Notes under the pieces: model-generated
The model's database searches: none
The model's input: only the letters and a program-made list of their open reading frames with translations
What the model was told of the DNA's origin: nothing
Program-made: the position numbers and the translations under genes
NCBI GenBank assembly: GCA_023132135.1
Contig: JAGLYR010000300.1
Location: forward strand, 1 to 7,843
Direction of reading: 5' to 3'
DNA: 7,843 nt
From: Candidatus Eiseniibacteriota bacterium
Lineage (GTDB): Bacteria > Arandabacterota > Arandabacteria > JAGLYR01
In this document: one piece after another, positions 1 to 7,791 of the stretch
How the letters are laid out: the number at the start of each line of letters is the position of its first letter
Numbering within the stretch: the first letter of the stretch is position 1

Positions 1-70
1 CTTGTCACCCTGTCACCTGTCACTGGATCTATGCATCGGCCTTGCCCGTGTGACGTGGGCGAGTGACAAG
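1..70. repeat. short TGTCAC repeats with an inverted partner
   Basis: TGTCAC occurs three times at the left edge (3-8, 11-16, 18-23), spaced 8 and 7 bases apart. CTTGTCAC at 1-8 has its exact reverse complement GTGACAAG at 63-70. The left edge is cut by the window, so the array may extend further. It lies in non-coding DNA upstream of the S8 protease and resembles the degenerate short-word arrays seen between genes in some uncultured bacterial genomes. No function can be read from it; the hairpin arms are only 8 bases and far apart. Confidence 0.5.
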
Positions 71-110
71 TGTCCAGTGTCGAGGAAATGGGGCAGCATT
101 CCGCAGGCCA

Positions 111-190
111 GGGACTGTCTCTCATGCCCTTCTCCTTGGACTACGTACTCGGCACTACGCACTAGGGACTGTCTCTCACGCCCTTCTCCT
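111..190. repeat. 26-base direct repeat pair, 54-base period
   Basis: A 26-base unit at 111-136 recurs at 165-190 with one difference (T at 125, C at 179). It begins GGGACTGTCTCTC and ends GCCCTTCTCCT. A partial third copy, CTGTCTCT, lies at 191-198. The 28-base linker holds its own small repeat, ACTACG at 140-145 and 154-159. The block is non-coding and sits 53 bases upstream of the predicted S8 promoter. It could be a genome-wide intergenic repeat or an upstream control region; the window alone cannot decide. Confidence 0.75.
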
Positions 191-242
191 CTGTCTCTAT
201 CAGTGTCTTCGGTGGATGGCTCAGCGGATAGGGGGTTTTGCC

Positions 243-272
243 TCGACATAGCCGCATGTTTCGAGATATACT
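243..272 (+). promoter_or_regulatory. predicted sigma70-type promoter of the S8 protease gene
   Basis: TCGACA at 243-248 matches the -35 consensus at 5 of 6 bases. TATACT at 267-272 matches the -10 consensus at 5 of 6, with an 18-base spacer. Transcription would begin near 279 and leave a leader of about 50 bases before the GTG at 329. The -10 block GAGATATACT resembles the one in front of the C25 protease (GTGATATACT), at nearly the same distance from the start codon. Prediction by eye only. Confidence 0.5.
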
Positions 273-313
273 TGATGCCTGACGAATCGCATCGCTGCCC
301 TGAAACCGCTACG

Positions 314-320
314 AAAGGAG
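314..320 (+). promoter_or_regulatory. ribosome binding site of the S8 protease gene
   Basis: AAAGGAG lies 8 bases before GTG 329. It is the only good Shine-Dalgarno sequence upstream of the signal peptide and decides the start: the frame stays open back to base 2, but the earlier in-frame starts lack such a site and would put unrelated sequence before the signal peptide. Confidence 0.75.
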
Positions 321-328
321 CCTCCATC

Positions 329-2731
329 GTGCGGACATACTGGAGTGGCCCCATCCTGGTCGTCGTTTCGATGTTGCTCATTGCAACCGGTTCCCTCGAG
401 GCAACCCCGGGGAATACGATCTACCTCATGACCCATACGTTCGATCCCGGTGAAGCGATCCCCGAAGTTCCCGCCTCCCTCAGCGCCCCCGAGCCCATCA
501 TGGGGCAGCAGGCCTACTACCTCGTTCAGCTCGGCGGTCCGCCGACAGAGGAACGGAAGGCATCCATTGTCTCCGGCGGCGGCGAGCTCATCGCGTATGT
601 CCCGGATCACACTTACATCGTGAGGATGGATCCCGCCACCCGGGAAGCAATCATTTCCTCTCCGCAAGTCCGCTGGGTCGGGCCCTACCACCCGGCGTAC
701 AGACTGGACTCGATGATCGGGCAGCGCGAGTTCCACAATCCCGAGCGCGCGTCCGATCCTCTCCATACACTGAGGATCCGTGTATTCGACGATCTGGACG
801 AGACGGCCGGGCAGATTCAGGATCTGGGCGCCGAGATTCTGGAGACCGTCGACGATGGGTTCCAGAAAACCGTCGTTGCTCGTGCAGCGCCCGAGATACT
901 CGAGGATATCGCACGACTGGCCCGCGTCTGGTGGATCGAGGAGAAACCGGAGTTCTTCCTGATGAACAACGACACCAAGTGGGTCGTCCAGTCCAACGTG
1001 TCCGGCAACACTCCCATCTGGGACAAGGGGCTCCATGGAGAGAATCAGCTGGCCGTGGTAATGGATTCCGGCCTCGACTACAATTCCTGCTGGTTCCGCG
1101 ATGGAGGCTCAGCCCCGGGACCCAGCCACCGGAAGGTGATCAACTACTCGCTGTATGGTGGCAACGCATACGACGGGTGTGACACTGGTCATGGTACCCA
1201 CGTGTGCGGCACTCTTGCCGGCGACCAGTCCTACGTCAATCCCGGGAACTACTCCTACAACGGGATGGCTTACAAGGCAAAGCTGGCCATGCAGGACGTT
1301 GGTGAGGATGACGTATGGTCGTGCACGGTTGGGGCGGTCAATGTGCCCAGCAGCCTGACCTCCGCCTACAACGCGGCGTACAATCTGGGCGGCCGTGTGC
1401 ATTCCAACTCCTGGGGCAGCACGGAGAACAGCTACGATTCCTACGCTGTGAACGTGGACAATTTCATGTGGGGACACCCCGATTTCCTGGTCGTCTTCGC
1501 CTGCGGGAATTCGGGATCCGGTTCGAGCACTGTCGGGTTCCCCGGCACTGCCAAGAACTGCGTCACCGTCGGCGCTACAAGGAGACCTCCACAGCAGAGC
1601 ACCATCGCAGGCTATTCGAGCCGCGGCCCCACCTCGGACAACCGTTACAAGCCGACGGTGGTCGCCCCCGGCGGAGAAGCCGGCTACGGCTACATCAACT
1701 CGGCTGACAACCACGCGGGCAATCCCCCGGCGCAGACCTGCAGCATGGTCAGCAGTCCTTTCCAGGGAACGTCGATGGCAGCCCCGGCCGTCGCCGGATG
1801 CGCGCTCCTGGTCCGCCAGTACTACACGGAAGGCTGGTACCCGAGCGGGACGCTGACCGGGGCCGATGCCCTGGTGCCCAGCGCGGCCGTGATGAAGGCC
1901 ACGCTTCTCAATTCCGCCACCGATATCGGCACCGCCAACATCCCCAACAACGACGAGGGCTGGGGACGGGTGCTTCTGGAAGACGCCCTTTATTTCCAGG
2001 GAGACGCCCGCGAGCTCATCGTGGAGGATGTGGCGCCGGGGGTCGCTCAGGGGCAGACACAGTCCTTCCAGTTCGAGGTCGACTCCTCCACGGTGCCCCT
2101 CGAGATCGTGCTGGTGTGGACGGACTACCCGGGCACAGCGGGAACCAGCGTGGCCATCCAGAACAATCTGAATCTCACGGTCACGGCCCCGGGTGGAACG
2201 CAGTACAGGGGGAACGTCTTCAGCGGCGGCCAGTCGATAGCCGGGGGCTCCTACGATACCCGAAACGTGGAAGAGGCCGTGAGGCGGAACAGCCCGTCTC
2301 TCGGCACGTACACGGTAGATGTGAACGGCGCGGTGGTTCCCCACGCGCCCCAGCCGTTCGCCCTCGTGACCACCGGGTCCTTCGCCAACTGGCCCCAGGA
2401 TCCCACCGGGGTCGCGGACGGGGAACTGACCGTCGCAGGAAAACCCTTCGAGATTCAGAGCATTTCTCCCAACCCGTTCAACCCGTCAACGACGATTGCT
2501 TACCGCTTGAATCCGGTGTCGTTGGGGATGGCGCGGGCAACACTCAAGATCTACGGCGTGGACGGACGGGTCGTGACCACTCTTGTCGACCGTGTCCAGG
2601 ATCCGGGACTCTACTCCGTGATCTGGAATGGGCGGTCGTCCGAGGGAGTGACCGTCTCCAGCGGCGTGTACTTCTGTGAGCTGGCGTATGGTGGGGAGAA
2701 AGAGACGAGGAAAGTCATTCTGTTGAAGTAG
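329..2731 (+). CDS. secreted subtilisin-family (S8, KP-43-like) serine protease with C-terminal sorting-type domain
   Basis: Secreted endopeptidase of 800 residues, probably hydrolysing proteins at the surface or in the medium. Residues 1 to about 25 form a Sec signal peptide (hydrophobic ILVVVSMLLI, then a small-residue cleavage zone). Residues about 63-127 and 145-211 look like two successive inhibitor-type propeptide units. The catalytic domain (about 220-555) has the full triad: Asp246 in MDSG, His288 in GHGTH, Ser482 in GTSMA, with oxyanion Asn394 in CGNSG. Residues about 585-695 form a beta domain with WTD and NNLNLTV motifs, as in the KP-43 type of S8 proteases. Residues 707-800 are a FlgD-Ig / type IX-like tail with SPNPFNP at 713-719 and RKVILLK at the end. 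The catalytic domain holds eight cysteines, unusual for subtilisins. It is first in a likely operon, 39 bases before the prenyltransferase-TPR gene. Family assignment is firm; substrate and secretion route are inferred. Confidence 0.93.
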   Translation: MRTYWSGPILVVVSMLLIATGSLEATPGNTIYLMTHTFDPGEAIPEVPASLSAPEPIMGQQAYYLVQLGGPPTEERKASIVSGGGELIAYVPDHTYIVRMDPATREAIISSPQVRWVGPYHPAYRLDSMIGQREFHNPERASDPLHTLRIRVFDDLDETAGQIQDLGAEILETVDDGFQKTVVARAAPEILEDIARLARVWWIEEKPEFFLMNNDTKWVVQSNVSGNTPIWDKGLHGENQLAVVMDSGLDYNSCWFRDGGSAPGPSHRKVINYSLYGGNAYDGCDTGHGTHVCGTLAGDQSYVNPGNYSYNGMAYKAKLAMQDVGEDDVWSCTVGAVNVPSSLTSAYNAAYNLGGRVHSNSWGSTENSYDSYAVNVDNFMWGHPDFLVVFACGNSGSGSSTVGFPGTAKNCVTVGATRRPPQQSTIAGYSSRGPTSDNRYKPTVVAPGGEAGYGYINSADNHAGNPPAQTCSMVSSPFQGTSMAAPAVAGCALLVRQYYTEGWYPSGTLTGADALVPSAAVMKATLLNSATDIGTANIPNNDEGWGRVLLEDALYFQGDARELIVEDVAPGVAQGQTQSFQFEVDSSTVPLEIVLVWTDYPGTAGTSVAIQNNLNLTVTAPGGTQYRGNVFSGGQSIAGGSYDTRNVEEAVRRNSPSLGTYTVDVNGAVVPHAPQPFALVTTGSFANWPQDPTGVADGELTVAGKPFEIQSISPNPFNPSTTIAYRLNPVSLGMARATLKIYGVDGRVVTTLVDRVQDPGLYSVIWNGRSSEGVTVSSGVYFCELAYGGEKETRKVILLK

Positions 2732-2770: not shown

Positions 2771-5296
2771 GTGGCACGGCGCTCGATCTCGTCCCTCATC
2801 TCAGATCTTGAGAACTCCCCCCTCCATTGGGGCTGCTACGCCGCCACTTTCATTGGCCTGGTGATCGCCCGGAATCTCATCGAAGGCGCGCTGGGCCCGG
2901 ATCGCATTCTGGGATTCACCTACTTCGCCTCTCCTTCGGCCCTGATGGTGCTGGATCATTTCCTCTTCTTCTACGTCAGCCTTTTTCTGGGCTTCTCGAT
3001 TCTCCTCTCTGTGCTGATCCGGGAGAGAATTGGCCGGGTCATGAAGGTAATGACGCCGGCGTGGGCACTGATCCTCATTCCCCCCGTTCTCGATTTCATC
3101 CTCACTGCGGGGAGTGGTGTACGAATTACCTACGTCCTCGACCTATCGCCCGTGATCCTCAGGTTCTTCGACCCGATGGTCGCCCTCGACCGCGTTTCAT
3201 ACGGCCAGCGGGTGGAAATCCTCCTCGCCTGCATTCTGGCTTGCGGGTACGTGCGGATCAGGACCCGGAGCTGGACGAGAGCCGTCGGGTCCTTCATCGG
3301 GGTCTACATTCTGATCGCGATACACGGGGTTCTTCCCAGTCTGTATGCGAAATCGGCATGGTTTGTGACGGAGGGGGCCGGGACAGGCGCGGCGGCTGCA
3401 TACGATGCCGCCTTCAAGTCGGGCGGAATTGTACAGGAGGAAAGCCGGAAGTTGGCGCTTCTCTTCCTCTTCGCATCGATTCTCCTGGGCTGGATTGCAC
3501 TCCGGATGCACACGCCAAAGAAGACAGACGCCGTCTGCGCGAACGTTCGCCCACTCCGCTCGATGCATTACACGGGAATGACGGTTTTCGGCGTTGCGCT
3601 GGGATGGGCTGTCTTTGCTCCGGCCGGAATCGAGTTCTCCGGCGGAGGAGATCTCCTCGGAGTTCTCGGAGTCTGCGTTGCCACCTTTTTTGCTCTCCAG
3701 GCATCGATCGGACTCAATGACCTTTTCGACGAGCAGGCCGACCGGATTGCGGGTGCGCACCGTCCCCTGGTGACCGGCATTCTGGAAAGAAAGGACGCCA
3801 TCCTGCAGGCAGTATCTTTCTCTGCAATAGCCCTTCTCCTTGCCCTCAACGTGAAATACTCGACTTTTCTCCTTATGGCGCTCGTGCTCGCGGTCTCGGT
3901 CTTCTACTCCGCGCCGCCGCTCAGGCTCAAGCGGATTCCGATCCTGGCAACGGTGACCCTTGGGCTCCTTTCTCTCCTGGCCGCGCTTATCGGATTCTCC
4001 GCGTTTGCCGAAGAACGATCCGTGGCGCTGTTCCCGCCAAGACTGGGGTGGCTGCTGGTGCTCTCCTTCGGCCTCGCCTTCACGGCCAAGGATCTCAAGG
4101 ACATCGATGGAGATCGAGCGACAGGCACACTCACACTGCCGATCCTGCTGGGACCCCGGGCGGGAAAGGCGGCCGTAGCGGTTCTCCTTGCTCTGGGGTA
4201 CCTTCTGATTCCTCTTCTTCTCCCCTACCGCGTGCTTATTGTTCCTTCGATCCTCCTGGGCCTTGCGAGCGCGGCGCTCGTCTACCTCTGGAAACGCCCC
4301 GGGGTAGACAACGTGCTTCTCGCTGTCTACCTCGCTTTCGCTCTGGTTGTCGCCACCGTAGTCGGGCGCGACGTGGACGCTCTCCTGGCCGGGGAAAATC
4401 CCCTGCTGGGGGCGAAAGTGGCGCAGATCCAGGGACGGAATGCGGAGGCGCGTTCCCGGTGGGATCAGGCGGCTGATCGCTATCTTCACGCCGCCCGCAT
4501 GCTCACCGATGATCCTGCTCTTCTCGAACACACCGGGGTCTCCCTGTTCAACAGCAACCGTATGGAGAAAGCGGCGGCAATGCTGGAGATGGCAACCGAA
4601 TCGAACCCGTCTTCCCCCGTCGCTCGGGAGTACCTAGCGATCTCGGAGATGAAGTTGGGTCACACGGACGTGGCCGCAATGCTCATGACCACTGCGGTCC
4701 GCTCAGGGATGAGACCGGGGATCTTCCTGTCTCACCTCGGGGATCTCTATCTGACGGCGGGAGACCCGGCATCGGCCCGGAGCACCCTGGCTCACGCGCT
4801 TCATGTCGGACACGGGGACGTCCCCACGCGCATCCGGTATGCCGACGCGCTGGCGGCCCTGGGGCTGGTGGATGAATCCCGGCATCAGTACGAGCGTGTT
4901 GTGGAGAGAGACCCCTCGTCGGCCGAAGCTCTGGATGCTCTTGGAAGGTTCTACCACTCTGCGGGCCGACCGGACATGGCTCTTCCCAGACTCCAACGGG
5001 CCGTGTCGCTCGCCCCCGCCGAGGCTACGTTCTGGAACAATCTCTCGGTTGTCTACCGCGACCTCAAGCGCTACGGCGAAACCCTCGATGCTCTTGACCG
5101 CGCGACGCGCCTGGATCCTGCACTTGTCGATGCGTACTACAACAGAGGACGCGTCTATGACACGCTCGGCCGTCACGACGAAGCGCGGAGGCAGTACCTT
5201 CTCGCTCTGGAAATCGATCCCTCCTTTGCGCAGGCGCGGAAAGAGCTGGAGAAACACGGGCTTGGCGACACTATGCAAGGGTCGGGTCGAAGGTAA
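2771..5296 (+). CDS. UbiA-family prenyltransferase fused to an N-terminal membrane domain and a C-terminal TPR array
   Basis: Inner-membrane protein of 841 residues in three parts. Residues 1-265 hold about six hydrophobic segments (about 21-41, 57-83, 94-112, 145-161, 171-193, 228-244) that I do not recognise. Residues about 266-535 are a complete UbiA domain with nine likely membrane segments. It has the first Asp-rich motif NDLFDEQAD at 316-324 and the second, DLKDIDGD, at 441-448. Such enzymes use these motifs to bind Mg2+ and polyprenyl diphosphate and transfer the prenyl chain to an acceptor; the acceptor here cannot be told. Residues 583-820 are seven TPR units of 34 residues each, with a degenerate one before them. 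UbiA enzymes are usually about 280-320 residues, so this is a large fusion. Charges in the loops place the TPR array in the periplasm. The UbiA and TPR calls are firm; the biological role is unknown. It might act in quinone or lipid synthesis, or modify exported proteins. Confidence 0.9.
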   Translation: MARRSISSLISDLENSPLHWGCYAATFIGLVIARNLIEGALGPDRILGFTYFASPSALMVLDHFLFFYVSLFLGFSILLSVLIRERIGRVMKVMTPAWALILIPPVLDFILTAGSGVRITYVLDLSPVILRFFDPMVALDRVSYGQRVEILLACILACGYVRIRTRSWTRAVGSFIGVYILIAIHGVLPSLYAKSAWFVTEGAGTGAAAAYDAAFKSGGIVQEESRKLALLFLFASILLGWIALRMHTPKKTDAVCANVRPLRSMHYTGMTVFGVALGWAVFAPAGIEFSGGGDLLGVLGVCVATFFALQASIGLNDLFDEQADRIAGAHRPLVTGILERKDAILQAVSFSAIALLLALNVKYSTFLLMALVLAVSVFYSAPPLRLKRIPILATVTLGLLSLLAALIGFSAFAEERSVALFPPRLGWLLVLSFGLAFTAKDLKDIDGDRATGTLTLPILLGPRAGKAAVAVLLALGYLLIPLLLPYRVLIVPSILLGLASAALVYLWKRPGVDNVLLAVYLAFALVVATVVGRDVDALLAGENPLLGAKVAQIQGRNAEARSRWDQAADRYLHAARMLTDDPALLEHTGVSLFNSNRMEKAAAMLEMATESNPSSPVAREYLAISEMKLGHTDVAAMLMTTAVRSGMRPGIFLSHLGDLYLTAGDPASARSTLAHALHVGHGDVPTRIRYADALAALGLVDESRHQYERVVERDPSSAEALDALGRFYHSAGRPDMALPRLQRAVSLAPAEATFWNNLSVVYRDLKRYGETLDALDRATRLDPALVDAYYNRGRVYDTLGRHDEARRQYLLALEIDPSFAQARKELEKHGLGDTMQGSGRR

Positions 5297-5323: not shown

Positions 5324-5352
5324 TTGCAATTCCGCCAGTTCTGTGATATACT
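5324..5352 (+). promoter_or_regulatory. predicted extended -10 promoter of the C25 protease gene
   Basis: TTGCAA at 5324-5329 and TATACT at 5347-5352 are separated by 17 bases, the ideal spacing. TG at 5344-5345 makes an extended -10 (TGATATACT). Transcription would start near 5359, giving a leader of about 48 bases to the GTG at 5407. This suggests the C25 gene can be expressed independently of the two genes before it. Confidence 0.65.
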
Positions 5353-5392
5353 GAGGCATTGGAATTCATCTCAATCATGGGTATTCCCCAAC

Positions 5393-5399
5393 GGAAGGA
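5393..5399 (+). promoter_or_regulatory. ribosome binding site of the C25 protease gene
   Basis: GGAAGGA lies 7 bases before GTG 5407. It favours this start over TTG 5359, which falls on the predicted transcription start, and over ATG 5377, which has only a weak and distant GGAA before it. Confidence 0.65.
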
Positions 5400-5406
5400 C
5401 AGGCCC

Positions 5407-7791
5407 GTGAGACACTTGATAATTGTTTCGAGCATCCTCCTGCTCGCCGCGCCCGTGTCCGGCGCCGTCGTCGAACACACCTACTCCTTCGACACGCCCC
5501 GGATCGTGACCACCGGCGGGTATCATCTCATCACCTTTGACGGCACCTACCCCGCGGGGAAACTCGGGGGGCCGATGCTCCCGTTCCAGGGTGCGGAGAT
5601 TCTGCTGCCTCCGGGAGAAGCCGTTGACTGGATCGAGATCCAGAGATGCAACCCGGCCACCCTGGATGGATCCTTCCGGCTGTTTCCTCAGCAACCGGTC
5701 CGACCCCTCTCCGAACCAGGCGCGACGGAGTTCCTGATCGACAGCACCGTCTATGGCAGCGACGTTCGCCTGCCGGAGGACATGGCCCCCGCCTTCAGTA
5801 CTCACTACGCCAATGGGATATCCATCGCTGTCGGGGCTTTCACCCCCATGACTTACATTCCCGGATCGGGGACGGTCACGTACTACCAATCCGTCACTGT
5901 ACGTGTCCATACCGAATCGACCATGGAATCCCGCCGCGCTCTGGAGATGCTGCCTACCTCGGAGAGGGTTCTGGAAGCAGCCGCGGCTCGCACGGACAAC
6001 CCCAAGGCGCTGACCTCCTACGCGCCCCGATCCACCGACGGCGAGTACGACTACCTCATCATCACGAAGAACACCTACGTTGACGATTTCCAGCCCCTGG
6101 CGGATTTCCATACCCGTCGCGGGATCCGGACGGAAATCAAGACCGTGGAATTCATCGACTCCAACTACTCGGGCGTGGATGCGGCGGACCGGGTCCGGGC
6201 CTGCATCATCTACGAGTACCAGAACCACGGAATCCAGTGGGTTCTGCTTGGAGGAGACGCGGACGGTGAACACGACGACCCGTCCGGAAAGGTGGTTCCC
6301 TACCGGGGCCTCTACTGCGGCGTGCAGTCTTCATCCTTCTACGAAGATTACCACATCCCTTCGGACTGCTACTTCGCCGGACTCGATGGCAACTGGAACA
6401 ACGATGGGGACAACCGCTGGGGTGAGCCCGGGGAGGAGGATTTCTATGGCGAGGTGGCCGTTGCCCGAGCCCCCGTGGACTGCGAAGCGGAAATCGCGAA
6501 CTTCATCACCAAGACCACCCGGTACCAGAGCGAACCGGTATCCGCCGAGGTGAGAGACGTTCTGCTCCTCGGAGAATACCTCTGGGCGGACCCCCTCACC
6601 TGGGGCGGCGACTACATGGACGAGCTGGATGGGGTCTGCACGAACAACGGCTTCACGACCCAGGGAATCCCCACTTCCTACCCAATCCAGAGACTCTATG
6701 ACAAGACCACCGGATGGGATGAATGGGACCTGATGGCCACCGTCAACAGCGGCCTCCACTTCATCCACCATCTGGGCCACTCAAACACGTGGTACACGAT
6801 GAAGATGTGGGACACCGACGTCACAGACGTCAACTTCACCAACAACGGCATCGACCACAGCTACTGCATCGTCTTCACCCAGGGATGCCTGGGCGGAGCG
6901 TTCGACAACTACTACGGGGGCGACTGGTACTCGGACGACTGCATTGCCGAGGACATGCTCTCCATCAACCACTACGCCGCGGCCGTGATCGCCAACTCCC
7001 GGTACGGGTGGTTTACCGAGGGGACCACCAACGGTCCGTCGCAGCACTTTCACCGGGAATTCGCGGATGCGCTCTACGGCGAGGGGATCACGACCCTGGG
7101 CGGAGCGATCACCCGCTGCAAAGCCGAGACCGCTCCATTTGTTGATCTCCCGGATGAGTACGAGCCCGGCGCGCACCGCTGGTGCTTCTACTGCAGCAAC
7201 GCCATGGGCGATGCGGCCATGGATTTGTGGACGGATACTCCGGGCAATCCGGCAGTGAACGCGCCGGAGAGTGTGGACCGGTACGCGGCGTCCGTGACCG
7301 TCGAGACCGGTGTGGAAGGAGCACTGGCGGCTCTTTCCTGGGATGGGACTCTCTACGGGCGCGCGTACGCGGGACCGTCGGGAGATGCAGAGGTGGTGTT
7401 CAGCGAGTTGATTGAAATGCTCGATGAGCTGGATCTCGTCGTCACCGCCCACAACTACCTGGCGCATGAGGGGACGATTCTGGTGACGGATTTTGCGGCC
7501 GCCTCCAACGAGGCCTCACTGGAAGTAGATTGGGCTCTTGCACCCTGCACGCCCAACCCGTTCTCGCGCGAGACCGCTATCCAGTACTCGATCCGGAGCG
7601 AGTCGGATGTTTCCATCCGGATCTTCGATGTCGAGGGACGCACTGTGGCCCGTCTCATCGACGGCCCCCAGTCAGCCGGACGCCATCAGGTTGTGTGGAA
7701 GCCCTATGAGCGCGTCGCTCCCGGGATCTATTTCTGCGAATTGCGGGCTGGAGAGTTCAGGGCGGTGAGGAAGTTGCTGATGGTGAGATAG
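5407..7791 (+). CDS. secreted gingipain-family (C25) cysteine protease with C-terminal sorting-type domain
   Basis: Secreted cysteine endopeptidase of 794 residues, related to the gingipains. Residues 1-20 are a short signal peptide (VRHL, then a hydrophobic run ending PVSGA). Residues about 21-205 form a pro-region with the GGPMLP and LPPGEAV motifs common in C25 propeptides. The catalytic domain runs from YDYLIIT near 214 to about 612 (NAMGDAAMDLW). The likely catalytic dyad is His458 in HHLGHSN and Cys494 in TQGCLGG; their 36-residue spacing is close to the 33 of RgpB. Residues about 613-700 resemble the Ig-like domain that follows the gingipain catalytic domain. Residues about 712-794 are a FlgD-Ig / type IX-like tail with TPNPF at 715-719 and RKLLMVR at the end. 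The protein has 14 cysteines. Its own promoter lies just upstream. Arg, Lys or other cleavage preference cannot be read from the sequence. GTG 5407 was chosen for its ribosome binding site and clean signal peptide. Confidence 0.92.
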   Translation: MRHLIIVSSILLLAAPVSGAVVEHTYSFDTPRIVTTGGYHLITFDGTYPAGKLGGPMLPFQGAEILLPPGEAVDWIEIQRCNPATLDGSFRLFPQQPVRPLSEPGATEFLIDSTVYGSDVRLPEDMAPAFSTHYANGISIAVGAFTPMTYIPGSGTVTYYQSVTVRVHTESTMESRRALEMLPTSERVLEAAAARTDNPKALTSYAPRSTDGEYDYLIITKNTYVDDFQPLADFHTRRGIRTEIKTVEFIDSNYSGVDAADRVRACIIYEYQNHGIQWVLLGGDADGEHDDPSGKVVPYRGLYCGVQSSSFYEDYHIPSDCYFAGLDGNWNNDGDNRWGEPGEEDFYGEVAVARAPVDCEAEIANFITKTTRYQSEPVSAEVRDVLLLGEYLWADPLTWGGDYMDELDGVCTNNGFTTQGIPTSYPIQRLYDKTTGWDEWDLMATVNSGLHFIHHLGHSNTWYTMKMWDTDVTDVNFTNNGIDHSYCIVFTQGCLGGAFDNYYGGDWYSDDCIAEDMLSINHYAAAVIANSRYGWFTEGTTNGPSQHFHREFADALYGEGITTLGGAITRCKAETAPFVDLPDEYEPGAHRWCFYCSNAMGDAAMDLWTDTPGNPAVNAPESVDRYAASVTVETGVEGALAALSWDGTLYGRAYAGPSGDAEVVFSELIEMLDELDLVVTAHNYLAHEGTILVTDFAAASNEASLEVDWALAPCTPNPFSRETAIQYSIRSESDVSIRIFDVEGRTVARLIDGPQSAGRHQVVWKPYERVAPGIYFCELRAGEFRAVRKLLMVR

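Follow-up and report, generated by a model that had tools for sequence, protein, structure and literature searches.

The gene at positions 2771-5296 of the window encodes an 841-residue protein that joins a six-segment N-terminal membrane domain (here called the N-domain), a UbiA domain and eight TPRs, and both this anatomy and its membership in a family of similarly built proteins are near certain. The subfamily, with its N-domain, its predicted periplasmic TPR arm and its recurrent dead paralogues, is apparently undescribed in the open-licence literature, although the UbiA superfamily itself is known. That literature, when searched, yielded no paper describing a UbiA-TPR fusion and none that links prenyltransferases with Eisenbacteria. 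The window, meaning the whole stretch of DNA that was analysed, spans all 7,843 bases of contig 225 in a 3.40-Mb draft genome of 345 contigs. It holds three genes, all on the same strand, with the following features:

2..2731, + strand: S8 subtilase with a FlgD_ig tail, upstream gene (Pfam 2.2e-41)
2771..5296, + strand: fusion gene, N-domain + UbiA + TPR, 841 residues (open reading frame; homologues 47-60% identical)
2771..3565, + strand: N-domain, six transmembrane (TM) segments, residues 1-265 (without Pfam or NCBIfam match; six helices by AF2; profile scans)
2870..2884, + strand: N-domain signature R34-x3-E38, end of TM1 (unchanged in 18 diverse relatives, with identity as low as 14%)
3080..3094, + strand: N-domain signature P104-P105-x2-D108, end of TM3 (P105 invariant, P104 and D108 at least 90%, 18 relatives)
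3203..3217, + strand: N-domain signature G145-x-R147-x-E149, start of TM4 (G145 at least 90%, 18 relatives)
3551..4393, + strand: UbiA domain, nine TM helices, residues 261-541 (Pfam 3.4e-28; model fits 6m31)
3716..3742, + strand: first Asp motif NDLFDEQAD, residues 316-324 (N316, D317, D320 and D324 invariant in the family)
4091..4114, + strand: second Asp motif DLKDIDGD, residues 441-448 (D441, D444 and D448 invariant in the family)
4415..5230, + strand: eight 34-residue TPRs, residues 549-820, predicted periplasmic (Pfam TPR, register, TPR folds, topology)
5359..7791, + strand: C25 (gingipain-type) peptidase with a sorting tail, downstream gene (Pfam 2.5e-47)

The fusion frame opens with a GTG start and has no internal stops. 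It lies 39 bp from the S8 subtilase gene, a gap in which no terminator-like site was found, and a promoter-like site (5324-5352) stands just 5' of the C25 peptidase gene. No Rfam RNA was found in the window.

The initial annotation described an unusual architecture and a genuine three-part fusion, not a chance read-through, and both points hold. Ten further loci that encode the same order at 47-60% identity were recovered from 84,980 scanned species genomes. Because these independent loci carry it, the 841-residue fusion is not an assembly error, and an assembly or read-through artefact is ruled out. Seven of the ten homologues are a single frame over essentially their full length, two (L044, L045) run into contig ends and one (L040) is frameshifted inside the TPRs. 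Six of the loci are labelled Candidatus Eisenbacteria, the others being bacterial MAGs. The junction between N-domain and UbiA is fixed in these homologues. Mean pairwise identity within the family is 0.60 for the N-domain, 0.61 for UbiA and 0.49 for the TPRs, the last TPR being an exception to this lower conservation. The widespread unit proved to be the pair of N-domain and UbiA, not the three-part set.

The middle part belongs to the UbiA superfamily. PF01040 matches residues 282-509 (E 3.4e-28, 99 bits against a gathering cut-off of 34.2), and both Asp motifs, of the NDxxDxxxD and DxxxD types, are found. The AF2 model has nine helices between residues 262 and 533, and its 248-540 region fits the DGGGP synthase 6m31 with a Z of 21.0 (265 residues, rmsd 5.1, 19% identity). 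The solved sequences nearest to the fusion are the prenyltransferase 4tq3, DGGGP synthase 6m31 and the chlorophyll synthase 9sau. The two Asp-rich motifs are intact, as first reported, with their N and D residues invariant in all homologues. Since none of these Asp residues varies among homologues at 47-60% identity, selection for catalysis is indicated in the window family, and the claim that the enzyme is probably active gains support from their retention.

As for the acceptor, none can be assigned from NCBIfam, because the fusion lies far below every equivalog cut-off. It scores 58.4 bits against 296 for the DGGGP synthase model PRK12882 and 58.5 against 353 for PRK12883, 33.6 against 250 for EboC (NF035940), and 28.9 on the nearest MenA model against 555. 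ChlG/BchG and homogentisate phytyltransferase are among its best NCBIfam matches (61-66 bits), but their cut-offs (212 to 436 and 226 bits) are above the fusion scores, which for the ChlG/BchG models range from 32 to 61 bits. Their architecture differs as well, and no chlorophyll genes were seen in the window. The early view that this is not a standard quinone enzyme agrees with a separate MenA in the same genome (L001; TIGR00751, 132 bits, over the cut-off), which falls in a different clade. The genome further encodes a DGGGPS-like UbiA (L002), a decaprenyl-phosphate phosphoribosyltransferase (L004), a BchG-like UbiA (L005) and a GGGPS (PF01884, 5.3e-41, G000:C124:17832-18527), so the standard UbiA roles are already taken. 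Separately, the GGGPS and the stand-alone L002 make archaeal-type ether lipids possible in this organism.

The N-terminal part had been described as a six-segment membrane domain without a known family, and so it appears: a domain search of the 841-residue protein recovers UbiA and TPR, and residues 1-265 match nothing in Pfam or NCBIfam. The AF2 model of the N-domain consists of six long helices (pTM 0.72, pLDDT 71.5). Model confidence is moderate (pLDDT 76 over the full length), and the periplasmic loops, with part of the signature, fall below 50. Compared with solved structures, this moderate-confidence model gave at best a VIA Z of 4.7 and a Foldseek E of 0.49, and a PDB profile search returned only a peptide-transporter stretch (0.0012). 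Given that confidence, the absence of a convincing PDB neighbour does not amount to proof of a new fold. Two candidate identities were rejected. A degenerate UbiA copy is one, as hhalign shows an overlap at the junction alone (14.8%; rejected at that sensitivity), and a known Pfam, NCBIfam or PDB family is the other, nothing having been found.

N-domain profiles matched in 20 of 386 and 25 of 385 genomes, in two heavily overlapping scans, and the matches come from many families. At least three phyla are represented: that of the window, that of the family f72 and that of genome G162, the last being a phylum with only two genomes in the set that was covered. Family f72 lies outside the window's phylum, and the homologue genomes G045 and G042 were placed there by identical match coordinates. 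The N-domain is absent from all seven other genomes of the window's phylum that the analysis covered. Weak profile matches were treated with care. Most of the distant ones are corroborated because the same reading frame runs on into a UbiA domain or UbiA-type motifs; a match at L112 (E 0.006) was discarded as false, the protein being a plain transporter by eye. In a comparison of 18 diverse N-domains, R34, E38, P105 and Y121 never vary, and P104, D108, G145 and Y160 rarely do. R147 and E149 are invariant in the close family and the degenerate paralogues. UbiA starts no more than a few residues from the end of the N-domain in nearly every intact case, and the joined signature (R-x3-E, PPxxD and GxRxE directly before UbiA) is present in the fusion.

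At the C-terminal end, the TPR array is as regular as initially stated, with units of 34 residues, but it holds eight consecutive units and not seven, the first (KVAQIQGRN...MLTDDP) having been missed. Pfam TPR models match down to 1e-24, the AF2 model has a helix pair (544-560/564-577) at this first unit, and the region compares with TPR folds at a Z of about 25.

In terms of topology, if the Asp loops are placed inside, the six helices of the N-domain and the nine of UbiA would put the N-terminus in and the C-terminus out. In the UbiA-fold protein Rv3806c, nine TM helices are connected by four loops on the cytoplasmic and four on the periplasmic side (PMC10994848), which places its N and C termini on opposite sides of the membrane. 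Like the fusion, Rv3806c has a cytoplasmic Asp-containing loop; it differs in transferring phosphoribose, not a prenyl group, and in lacking extra domains, and its counterpart L004 is separate in the window genome. With the C-terminus opposite the Asp motifs, the TPRs should be periplasmic. Across eight homologues the loops hold on average 29.9 K+R per protein inside against 13.9 outside, and most short loops obey the positive-inside rule clearly. The rule is less clear at the N-domain loops 112-145 and 197-225, predicted outside, because they hold 4.6 K+R each. Together, the number of helices and the positive-inside rule predict a cytoplasmic active site and periplasmic TPRs. TPRs so placed could hardly keep a substrate from the cytoplasm in position for catalysis, which speaks against the initial proposal that they tie the enzyme to its substrate.

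A layout of this kind is met in the TMTC O-mannosyltransferases, polytopic membrane transferases whose C-terminal TPR array lies on the face of the membrane away from the cytoplasm. These have a GT-C fold, and their active site and TPRs are on the same side, unlike the fusion. The resemblance is an analogy of layout only, and homology is not claimed.

A tree of 38 UbiA sequences, which leaves the TPR-type tails of the degenerate forms outside, gives the placing that had been asked for: the fusion groups with the N-domain-bearing UbiAs, beside DGGGP-synthase-like enzymes. The N-domain-bearing proteins form one branch (support 100/97), which includes one plain UbiA, L113; the AU test does not reject an exclusive N-domain-UbiA clade (p 0.317). 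The TPR-bearing proteins lie together on one side of a split with 98/94 support. Next to the N-domain branch stands a DGGGPS-like one (L002, L119, L131), the union of the two being supported at 90/75. A single N-domain fusion, followed by a single gain of TPRs within the branch, would be the simplest history.

The N-domain proteins fall into several architectures. The first has the N-domain and an intact UbiA without TPRs, in 514-556 residues (L104, L106, L107, L147, L149, L150, L151, L152); at L149 (5169-8645) two such intact genes stand in tandem, in a genome (G398) that also has the degenerate L148 and L153. The second adds a C-terminal 138-301 residues with TPRs and comprises the window family, L114, L096, L102 and L105, the TPR match of L105 being marginal. 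In the third, the UbiA region lacks the Asp motifs, either with TPR-type tails (L049, L050, L075, L097, L098) or without them (L148, L153). The fourth has the N-domain without a recognisable UbiA (L099, L100, L101, L103, L108, L109, L110, L111).

For L049, L050, L074 and L075, hhalign identifies the middle region as a true relative of UbiA (99%, 2.6e-18). Second and third architectures occur together in genomes G041-G045, G391, G392 and G394, the degeneracy of the co-occurring paralogues having been read in L049, L050, L052, L074 and L075, and in G398 intact and degenerate two-domain forms are both present. Judging from these co-occurring sequences, catalysis was probably lost more than once while the N-domain was kept.

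Other features of these paralogues were also seen. L049 (4670-7129), L050 (5108-7570), L074 and L075 make up a second paralogue family in Eisenbacteria-type genomes, in which N-domain and TPRs are retained and the Asp motifs gone, and genes resembling UDP-glucose dehydrogenase and sugar epimerase lie near L049 and L052 (by eye). L110 (5295-7067) and L111 (5652-7475) carry the UbiA-like motifs NDHFD.DED and KDYKDIREDY and are possibly a very divergent UbiA branch; no Pfam model matched the L110 protein. Broken frames are found in L040 (8190-8440, within the TPRs) and in the degenerate paralogue L052 (3835-6331), reflecting sequencing error or decay.

Our leading reading of the function, which we hold with about even confidence, is a cytoplasm-facing prenyltransferase joined to a periplasmic platform of N-domain and TPRs, with a small lipid or head group as its acceptor. 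The two Asp motifs would hold Mg2+, and the UbiA part would transfer an isoprenoid diphosphate to the acceptor at the cytoplasmic face. The polar residues R34, E38, D108, R147 and E149 of the N-domain would lie at periplasmic helix ends, where the domain may receive or move the prenylated product, or hold a periplasmic partner. The TPRs may dock envelope proteins on the periplasmic side, and the Asp-less paralogues may serve as non-catalytic partners or scaffolds. The membrane domain travels with one UbiA branch in at least three bacterial phyla. The family thus offers a handle on the isoprenoid products of little-studied bacteria, and on the question whether prenyltransferases can be coupled to processes across the membrane.

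Several other explanations were weighed. A DGGGP-synthase-type enzyme, adding a second prenyl chain to prenylglycerol-phosphate or a similar head group for membrane ether lipids, with the extra domains only tuning it, is possible but unlikely. It draws on the sister grouping with L002, L119 and L131, the fold match to 6m31 (Z 21), the presence of PRK12884 and PRK12882 among the best NCBIfam models, and the GGGPS of the genome. The archaeal DGGGP synthases (6m31, 7bpu) do share the fold over 265 residues and both Asp motifs, and form the neighbouring clade, but they are about 280 residues long, without N-domain or TPRs. The fusion remains far under the family cut-offs, as under every NCBIfam cut-off, and the stand-alone DGGGPS-like UbiA of the same genome reaches 209 bits on PRK12884 against 71 for the fusion; the TPRs and dead paralogues are also left unexplained. 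Those paralogues are what recommends a different idea, that the UbiA part has become chiefly a structural or lipid-binding module, leaving the conserved work to the N-domain: the Asp motifs are repeatedly lost with the N-domain kept (L049, L050, L075, L097, L098, L148, L153), and some N-domain proteins have no recognisable UbiA (L099, L101, L103, L108, L109). Within the window family, every one of the Asp residues is invariant at 47-60% identity. We find this reading quite unlikely.

The closest published parallel in logic is the ebo cluster, whose UbiA-like EboC is nearest to DGGGP synthase and was proposed to assemble with the TPR-like EboA for export (PMC6282210). By this analogy the fusion would make a prenylated carrier that serves to bring a compound into the periplasm; the N-domain would be the transporter or flippase, and the TPRs would scaffold a complex. 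Type I phosphodiesterases near the fusion gene in Eisenbacteria are in keeping with this. In the ebo cluster, the TPR-like part is a separate protein and no N-domain is reported for EboC; the score on the EboC model is well short, other ebo genes were not recognised beside the fusion and the N-domain fits no transporter fold, which together make the idea rather improbable. Protein prenylation or lipidation, in which exported polypeptides bind to the TPRs and receive a lipid anchor from the enzyme, would account for the large secreted or surface proteins that are often neighbours (S8 and C25 in the window; L038, L043, L107, L153, L152, L104). UbiA enzymes normally attach isoprenoid tails to small molecules, the predicted active site is across the membrane from the TPRs, and secreted proteins are abundant in these genomes; we regard it as highly improbable. 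A bolder version of the platform reading, and a very unlikely one, makes the N-domain a new type of periplasm-facing membrane module, a flippase or transferase; the fusion would link synthesis of a prenylated lipid on the cytoplasmic face to its use on envelope proteins gathered by the TPRs, with the dead paralogues as partner subunits. If true, bacteria would handle exported proteins through a system that depends on a prenyl lipid.

The neighbouring genes give a hint, from gene neighbourhood only, of a link to exported proteins. An S8 subtilase gene with FlgD_ig lies immediately 5' also in L038 and L043. Secreted neighbours of 1,800-1,900 residues are found at L107 and L153, one of 1,293 residues at L152, and two large lipoproteins at L104. 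Since the genomes are rich in such genes, these neighbours are a lead only. The FlgD_ig neighbour is weak evidence because FlgD_ig has 125 matches in the window genome (G000), and a link to FlgD_ig sorting was set aside as weak for the same reason. The link to 'YQG' surface proteins is suggestive: they adjoin the Eisenbacteria loci, twice at L151, and the sole copy in G041 is adjacent. They are abundant, and at the G398 and G400 loci read they are not adjacent.

Lastly, some minor observations concern the surroundings. The abundant C-terminal FlgD_ig tails suggest a type-IX-like sorting system in the window genome. L107 (5859-8829) and L153 (5453-8100), in genomes distant from each other, share a conserved trio made of a secreted helical protein, the N-domain-UbiA protein and the secreted protein of 1,800-1,900 residues, which is repetitive; the first trio protein has QW-like repeats (by eye). 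A conserved 276-residue membrane protein (MWP.LR...TSNQ) without Pfam match is found at L036 (10374-11204), and also at L037 and L040, two or three genes away from the fusion.
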